A stretch of DNA of 56,891 nt, taken from Bacteroidota bacterium (GTDB lineage: Bacteria > Bacteroidota > Bacteroidia > Flavobacteriales_F > PHOS-HE28). Within the stretch, counting starts at the first letter, position 1; each line of letters starts with the position of its first letter. The notes beneath the pieces are model-generated. The model made no database searches, was not told where the DNA came from, and was given only the letters and a program-made list of their open reading frames with translations. This document shows, in pieces, positions 30,089 through 31,581 of the stretch. Location of the stretch: positions 1 to 56,891 of the forward strand of contig JAFEAI010000281.1 of assembly GCA_018266475.1 (NCBI GenBank), given 5' to 3'. Position numbers and translations under genes: made by a program.

Positions 30089-30574
30089 ATGAAATCACTG
30101 CTTCTCGCCTCCTTCCTGCTGTGCGCCCCGTTAGCCCCGGAGTGCCTGGTGACCATCCACCACGATCCGGACACGCAGAGCCTTTCGGTAGTATGCCTGC
30201 TGAACCTGCACGACCTGAACACGGTGATCATGGACATGAGCGGTGAGGACCCGCAACTTGGCACGGCCACGGAGACCTCGGACGCGGACACGCTGATCAA
30301 GCAGTATTTGCAGCGGCACCTGCACCTTTCCTTCGGCGACAGCGCGCTGCACATGGCCTACCTCGGGCACAAGGAAGATGTAAGCCTGATGATCTGCCGG
30401 CTGCAAGTGGACAGTGTGCCTACCGCCGAGGGGCTTACGGTAAGCAGCGACCTGTTCGGCTCGCTGTACCAGGACCAGGTGATCGACGTGAAGGTGGAGA
30501 CCAAGGAAGGCGTGGAAACCCACCCGCTGTACCAGAACGAGAACTCCTTCACGTTCGGGATGCAGAACAAATAA
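30089..30574 (+). CDS. DUF6702 family secreted protein
   Basis: 161 residues. Hydrophobic signal region MKSLLLASFLLCAPLAP, then VTIHHDPDTQSLSVVCLLNLHDLNTVIMD, LIKQYLQRHLHLSFGDSALHMAYLGHKEDVSLMICRLQ and a C-terminal HPLYQNENSFTFGMQN. This matches the small DUF6702 proteins of Bacteroidota, where the role is unknown. The stop codon TAA shares its last base with the first stem of the repeat array downstream. Confidence 0.75.
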   Translation: MKSLLLASFLLCAPLAPECLVTIHHDPDTQSLSVVCLLNLHDLNTVIMDMSGEDPQLGTATETSDADTLIKQYLQRHLHLSFGDSALHMAYLGHKEDVSLMICRLQVDSVPTAEGLTVSSDLFGSLYQDQVIDVKVETKEGVETHPLYQNENSFTFGMQNK

Positions 30575-30825
30575 TACCAATGTGGCATTCAGATCAGTCC
30601 AAAGGACGATCTGAATGCCTACAGTGGTATATGCCGTGTGTACAAGCAAATGGTCGGATAAGGTGATGCCAATGTGTCTTCCGGCAGCGCCGGAAGGCTA
30701 CAGTGGCACATGCCGTTCGAGCATGCAAATGATCGGAACGGTGTGATGCCAATGTGTCTTCCGGCAGCACCGGAAGGCTACAGCAGCACATGCCTTCGAG
30801 CATGCAAATGATCGGAACGGTGTGA
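30574..30825. repeat. Tandem array of three hairpin (REP-like) units
   Basis: Three head-to-tail units of about 80-92 nt. Unit 1 (30574-30665) has outer stem ATACCA (30574-30579)/TGGTAT (30625-30630) and inner stem GGCATTCAGATC (30584-30595)/GATCTGAATGCC (30608-30619). Unit 2 (30666-30745) has outer TGCCA/TGGCA and inner CTTCCGGC (30678-30685)/GCCGGAAG (30689-30696). Unit 3 (30746-30825) is nearly identical to unit 2, with one inner base changed and a weakened outer stem. Between stems the sequences AATGTG and CTACAG are conserved. Not protein-coding. Confidence 0.88.
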
Positions 30826-30870
30826 TGGCGAAATCGGACCATATTGCTTGTCACAACGGCATGAGTGGGA

Positions 30871-31581
30871 TCACAGCCCCATCAGCTCGCGGAAGCGGAG
30901 GGATTGCCTACGGCTCACCTCCACCACTTCCCCTGTGGAAAGTGTGCAGTTAAGGCCTCCGCTGAACCACGGCTCGATCTTCTGCACCCAGGCCATGTTG
31001 ATCATCTGCTTGCGGTTGGCGCGGAAGAAGGCGTGCGGGTCCAGCCTCTTCTCCAGGCTGTTCAGCGAGCGTAGCACCAGCGGCTTGTTGTCCCCAAAGC
31101 GCACGCGCACATAGTTGCCCTCGCTCTCGAACAGCCGCACCTCCCGCAAGGGGACGAACCAGCACTTCTCGCCATCCCTGATGAAGATGCGGTCCTCGGG
31201 GGTGAGCACGGCGCGCTGGACATCACCTGCTTTGGGCAGCAGGGCCAGCTTGGCAATGGCGGCGGCCAGCCGCTCCGGGTCGATGGGCTTCAGCAGGTAG
31301 TCCAGCGCATTCACCTCAAAGGCCTTCACGGCATGCTCGTCGTATGCGGTCACGAAAACCACATGTGGCGCAGCCTCCAGCGCGGCAAGCAGCTCGAATC
31401 CGTCCCTGCCGGGCATGTTGATGTCCAGGAACAGCAGGTCCGGGCGCAGCTCCGTAAGCAGCTTTTCCGCCTCGTCCGCATTGGCCGCCTCCCCCACCAC
31501 TTCAATGTGGGCATGCGGCTCCAGCAGGCGCATCAACTCCTTGCGCGCAAGGCGTTCATCATCTACGATCAGTGCTTTCAT
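30871..31581 (-). CDS. LytTR-family response regulator
   Basis: 236 residues. The receiver domain starts MKALIVDDERLARKEL, with phosphoacceptor Asp53 in LLFLDINMPGRDGFELL and the switch region FVTAYDEHAVKAFEVNALDYLLKP. The LytTR DNA-binding domain starts about 137 (DRIFIRDGEKCWFVPLREVRLFESEGNYVRV) and ends EVSRRQSLRFRELMGL. Its start overlaps the stop of the sensor kinase gene upstream (ATGA type), so the two form a two-component operon. Targets unknown. Confidence 0.94.
   Translation of the reverse strand: MKALIVDDERLARKELMRLLEPHAHIEVVGEAANADEAEKLLTELRPDLLFLDINMPGRDGFELLAALEAAPHVVFVTAYDEHAVKAFEVNALDYLLKPIDPERLAAAIAKLALLPKAGDVQRAVLTPEDRIFIRDGEKCWFVPLREVRLFESEGNYVRVRFGDNKPLVLRSLNSLEKRLDPHAFFRANRKQMINMAWVQKIEPWFSGGLNCTLSTGEVVEVSRRQSLRFRELMGL

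Follow-up and report, generated by a model that had tools for sequence, protein, structure and literature searches.

A tandem array of hairpins lies between two convergent genes in a 56,891-nt stretch of DNA from a member of the Bacteroidota (hereafter the window). The question that it raises is what kind of element builds such an array and why the array begins directly at the end of a gene. An initial annotation, made from the sequence alone, described three units at 30574-30825 that keep a two-stem shape despite differing stems, and took this as the covariation of a selected structure, either an RNA or a REP-like element moved by a RAYT-type transposase. The explanation that best accounts for the evidence is that the array is, with high probability, an expanded copy of a non-autonomous miniature element (MITE) that is mobile in one Flavobacteriales genus and inserts at ANG-TNA sites, mostly in stop codons.

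Three hairpin units are indeed present, starting at 30571, 30663 and 30743. The inner stem of unit 1 is formed by GGCATTCAGATC and GATCTGAATGCC (30584-30595/30608-30619), which are 100% complementary, and units 2 and 3 carry a different inner stem, CTTCCGGC/GCCGGAAG, as had been described. The outer stems had been read correctly for units 1 and 2; in unit 3, the right outer arm is CAGCA rather than TGGCA, with the loss of two of the five outer pairs. The blocks AATGTG and CTACAG had been regarded as unpaired, but TGTG is base-paired with C-ACA, leaving one T bulged out, and this pairing is kept across copies. The array also extends beyond position 30825, where it had been thought to end: the right arm of a second hairpin reaches 30861, giving a true span of 30575-30861. 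The locus has the following features.

30089..30574, + strand: upstream gene encoding 161 aa, called as an ORF; its stop codon is the insertion site.
30572..30574, + strand: left target duplication, TAA, which doubles as the upstream gene's stop codon (from the ORF end and the TNA duplications across copies).
30575..30861, + strand: expanded MITE copy, TACC...GGCA, with three hairpin-1 units and one right end (from the terminal inverted repeats TACCAATGTGGC / TGCCGTTGTGAC and alignment with single-unit copies).
30574..30630, + strand: hairpin 1, unit 1 (type A: long stem, bulged T, A-G mismatch).
30631..30658, + strand: hairpin 2 left arm, unit 1 (ATGCCGTGTGTACAAGCAAATGGTCGGA), complementary to 30834-30861.
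30667..30708, + strand: hairpin 1, unit 2 (type B: short GC-rich stem).
30710..30737, + strand: hairpin 2 left arm, unit 2.
30747..30788, + strand: hairpin 1, unit 3 (type B; outer right arm partly broken).
30790..30816, + strand: hairpin 2 left arm, unit 3.
30834..30861, + strand: hairpin 2 right arm with the right terminal inverted repeat, present once (terminal repeat match 30846-30864).
30862..30864, + strand: right target duplication, TGA, one transition from the left TAA.
30871..31581, - strand: convergent LytTR response-regulator gene, whose stop is 6 nt beyond the right duplication.

In the array, a single copy of the basic unit of the MITE has been expanded internally. Because it holds three units of hairpin 1 plus the left arm of hairpin 2 and a single right arm, it grew by tandem duplication of that combination. 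A nested-insertion origin was considered and is ruled out, since the right end occurs only once. Comparable expansions are found at C86, C101 and C273.

The extent of the basic element was defined by comparing single-copy loci. A complete single copy measures 127-131 nt between its flanking triplets, starts with TACCAATGTGACATTC, ends with the inverted version TTGCTTGTCACAACGGTA, and forms two adjacent hairpins. The conserved tail of the initial annotation proved to be the left arm of hairpin 2, and the right arm of this hairpin, TCCGACCATATTGCTTGTCACAACGGTAT, is the end of the element. The terminal inverted repeats (TIRs) have the form TACC..TGTGACA, with TACCAATGTGACATTC facing TACCGTTGTGACAAGC in complete copies. 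Relative to shuffled sequence, the predicted fold has z = -12.1 for 30572-30864 and z = -8.6 for one complete copy. The element is multicopy, and its short length leaves no room for a transposase gene. It is a MITE, that is, a non-autonomous DDE-type miniature element, and represents a new family of one Flavobacteriales genus. Some copies have a more complex structure. A chimeric copy in a Lys-TGA stop codon (L233 872-999, on C102) keeps both terminal repeats around an intrinsic-terminator-like hairpin, AAAGCCCCGC..GCGGGGCTTTCTTCTTTT, and two copies (L084 3976-4290 on C183; L086 4060-4281 on C136) are apparently interrupted by one common second repeat family of ~170 nt, with a short repeated stretch, GATCCGAGCG, at the break in the C183 copy.

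That further copies exist in the genome, as the initial annotation had expected, is borne out by about 45-50 matches in the window's own assembly (G000): 48 with the array DNA as query and 50 with a covariance model built from 33 units. The covariance model identified carriers in 4 of 35 same-genus genomes (G000, G004, G006 and G032) and in none of 23 genomes from other families. A search for the terminal pattern in 45 congeners added a fifth carrier, G066, bringing the total to 5/45. A scan of a public genome collection gave matches solely in Flavobacteriales/Bacteroidetes metagenome-assembled genomes (MAGs), and plasmid and phage collections gave no match; viral contigs that carry the right TIR were set aside as one unrelated sequence repeated in three contigs. 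As far as these searches reach, the element is confined to one Flavobacteriales genus. The genomes are apparently mostly draft assemblies, and MAGs where named. Copy number differs tenfold between congeners, with only five copies in the near-complete genome of G004 and ~50 in G000.

How the element moves is recorded in its flanks. The TNA triplets to the left and right of the element match in 24 of 35 copies, compared with a mean of 7.7 and a maximum of 18 in 100,000 shufflings; the window copy, with TAA on the left and TGA on the right, is one of the 11/35 with mismatched duplications. Comparison with related species shows what these sites looked like without the element. A gene that is interrupted by one copy in G004 is uninterrupted, with a clean empty site, in G013, G018, G024 and G027, several further copies have orthologous empty sites in related species, and for copies at gene ends the element-free orthologs have the triplet only once. 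For example, ..AGGAAGTGA|TCGCATCC in G004 corresponds to AGGAAG-TGA-[element]-TGA-TCGTGCAT in G000. The window copy has no orthologous empty site: no ortholog of the 161-aa upstream gene was found beside LytTR in 29 congeners. Together, the inverted repeats and the 3-bp TNA target duplication indicate DDE-type double-strand insertion. One complete copy in G066 (L223 1386-1519, on C319), with a TCA/TCA duplication, disrupts a gene whose translation resembles a Fic-domain protein.

The mode of insertion bears directly on the proposal that a RAYT (Y1 tyrosine transposase) moves the array as single-stranded DNA, in the manner of a REP/REPIN element. The initial annotation was right about a mobile element, and the element resembles REPs in being palindromic and in lying mainly at gene 3' ends; REP termini, too, can give flanking genes their stop codons (PMC3733652). 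Terminal inverted repeats with a 3-bp TNA duplication argue against RAYT mobilization. GTAG does appear on the reverse strand beside the type B inner hairpin, but it lies within a stem and not at the end of a repeat, and the element ends in TACC/GGTA. The initial annotation had also suggested looking for a Y1 gene, and RAYT-family genes are present in the genome. However, none of the six whose flanks were read in G000 (on C79, C193, C30, C237, C108 and C19; L012, L011, L013, L051, L009 and L010) has the repeat within ~1-1.5 kb, and each lies beside palindromic repeats of its own. Long arrays of GCATCAGGGTCC..GAGACCCTGATGGAGC-like hairpins flank the C237 gene on both sides. A gene fragment on C15 gave no model match in its 5-kb locus. 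The only such gene close to a copy is in G004, ~320 bp away; it was considered as a mobilizer and rejected, since it is accompanied by different palindromes of its own and the copy interrupts another gene, making the proximity a coincidence. These data make movement by a RAYT very improbable.

If the element is moved by a DDE transposase, the enzyme would be supplied in trans. No autonomous insertion sequence with these ends was found, and TIR matches in the carriers pair only at the length of the element. The 21 PF01609 (DDE_Tnp_1) loci of the five carriers have other ends and none has these TIRs, PF01609 being the only DDE family covered. The partner transposase may have been lost, may be unassembled in the draft genomes, or may belong to a family outside the search. 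A single feature, the TNA duplication, points to a transposase of the IS5/IS1031 type acting in trans; members of the IS1031 group of the IS5 family favour TNA and generate an exclusive 3-bp repeat (PMC12016507). Such an enzyme would cut at the terminal repeats and insert the element at ANG-TNA.

The unusual aspect of this element is its strong concentration in stop codons. In 20/35 copies, among them the one in the window, the left TNA serves as the in-frame stop of a long, intact upstream ORF whose codon composition is normal. Gene calls were based on ORFs and codon composition, and gene names on the translated C-termini. In congeners, the element-free orthologs of infC, an LptF/G-like permease, an acyl-CoA dehydrogenase, a BAX-inhibitor-like gene and others terminate at the identical residue, and the remaining orthologs tested end within a few residues. 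The protein is unchanged because the 3-bp duplication regenerates the stop codon. One further stop site (L100) was entered from the opposite side, and a left-end remnant lies at the stop codon of a response-regulator gene on C198. The stop codon of the acyl-CoA dehydrogenase holds a copy in two species (L075 3979, on C191 of G000; L095, at C3:565722 of G004) with differing downstream flanks; either one ancestral insertion followed by rearrangement or two separate insertions could account for this. The open-access literature yielded no account of a MITE that restores the stop codon into which it inserts, which is not proof of novelty.

The concentration in stop codons is accompanied by a site motif. 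There is an A at position -3 in 17/20 stop copies and 13/14 non-stop copies, and a G at -1 in 15/20 and 8/14, respectively; typical stop sites read AAG-TAA or AAG-TGA. Among the copies of G000, 17/25 are at stop sites, whereas stop sites make up ~6% of A-N-[AG]-TNA sites in non-coding sequence and stop codons combined. This control was sampled from the loci that hold copies, which inflates the expected share and so works against finding an excess at stops. We tentatively propose, as a possibility that still falls short of an even chance, that an integration preference for A-N-G|TNA makes stop codons, and Lys-stop in particular, a natural safe harbour: the duplication would rebuild the stop, and the gene would acquire a double-hairpin 3' untranslated region (UTR) while remaining unharmed. 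Since the motif is asymmetric, hairpin 1 would mostly point toward the gene, and the element would form a structured 3' UTR. Insertions within genes would be removed by selection, and the subfamilies that spread would be those that keep their stems.

The same placement can be read in another way, in which the hairpins serve a selected RNA function as a 3'-UTR stabilizer, a terminator or a processed RNA, the mobile origin is incidental, and copies at stop codons were kept because they benefit the gene. Copies concentrated right at stop codons in one orientation, and their convergent or downstream location, are what such a function would predict. However, the orientation is explained by the asymmetric target motif, which is common to the non-stop copies, and some copies interrupt genes. 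The window copy contains no intrinsic terminator, the T-run being absent, and the element has no Rfam match at the gathering cut-off; microRNA matches were sub-threshold and at chance level only.

Covariation also speaks for an RNA function, and it held up, as the initial annotation had anticipated, when more copies were aligned. Across 33 hairpin-1 units, double-sided changes occur at 12 of 25 pairs and make up 66 cells compared with 24.6 by shuffling, and 22 complete copies yield 38 double-sided cells compared with 13.2; the signal is lost when the partner is slid. While the covariation is real and significant, the step from it to a selected structure is less secure. In the complete copies, ~128 of 1119 cells (about 11%) are broken, outnumbering the 38 double-sided compensations by ~3:1, as in decaying MITE copies. 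This pattern would be expected if a few subfamilies had spread while their stems were intact and had decayed afterwards, and with the orientation and gene-interrupting copies it makes a selected RNA function unlikely. Somewhat less doubtful, although still the weaker prospect, is that selection played no part and the compensatory changes came from strand-switch (quasipalindrome) copying, in which one arm serves as template for the other during replication. The arms sometimes change jointly over neighbouring pairs, as at the tip of the L098 copy and in the type B stems, and template switching would produce this in one step. Interpretation is confounded by the fact that strand-switching is not separable here from evolution of master copies; moreover, double-sided changes also occur at a few outer pairs, where transposase binding or some other constraint could be responsible.

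A MITE that enters stop codons in this way matters for several reasons. A mobile element can spread in a compact genome at almost no cost, since its duplication has the size of a stop codon and TNA restores TAA or TGA. Whether stop-codon placement comes from the integrase, through the site motif, or from selection on the survivors is a testable question. Related species with and without a strong double hairpin behind a given stop codon provide a natural set of genes for the study of 3'-UTR effects in Bacteroidota.

There are parallels with several known systems. GTAG REPs with a RAYT also place hairpins beside gene ends, and their termini often supply the TAG stop of flanking genes (PMC3733652). 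REPs are tagged with GTAG or CGTC at one end (PMC3733652), whereas the element described here is untagged; GTAG REPs have GTAG at the palindrome end and a RAYT gene of their own, neither of which is true here, and the TNA target duplication seen here is not a REP feature. The IS1031 group of the IS5 family, with its PIF/Harbinger relatives, shares the 3-bp TNA target duplication (PMC12016507), although TACC..TGTGACA differs from the one IS1031-type end quoted (GAACCTGTC...). BrickBuilt of Porphyromonas gingivalis is likewise a MITE from the Bacteroidota that contains tandem repeats, forms long stem-loops and has IS5-like ends (PMC4596501); unlike the present element, it has a 23-nt repeat unit and reported 4-bp duplications, and no stop-codon placement is reported for it. 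ERIC / RU-1, RUP and Correia-NEMIS elements are similar in being ~100-160 nt long, palindromic, dispersed and mostly intergenic, in forming a strong stem-loop if transcribed, and in being presumed to be moved in trans by the transposases of insertion sequences (PMC2229807, PMC3049150, PMC10969869). Those elements typically have TA at their ends (RUP being IS630-like), whereas the element described here duplicates TNA, is made of two hairpins side by side, and occupies stop codons preceded by A-N-G.
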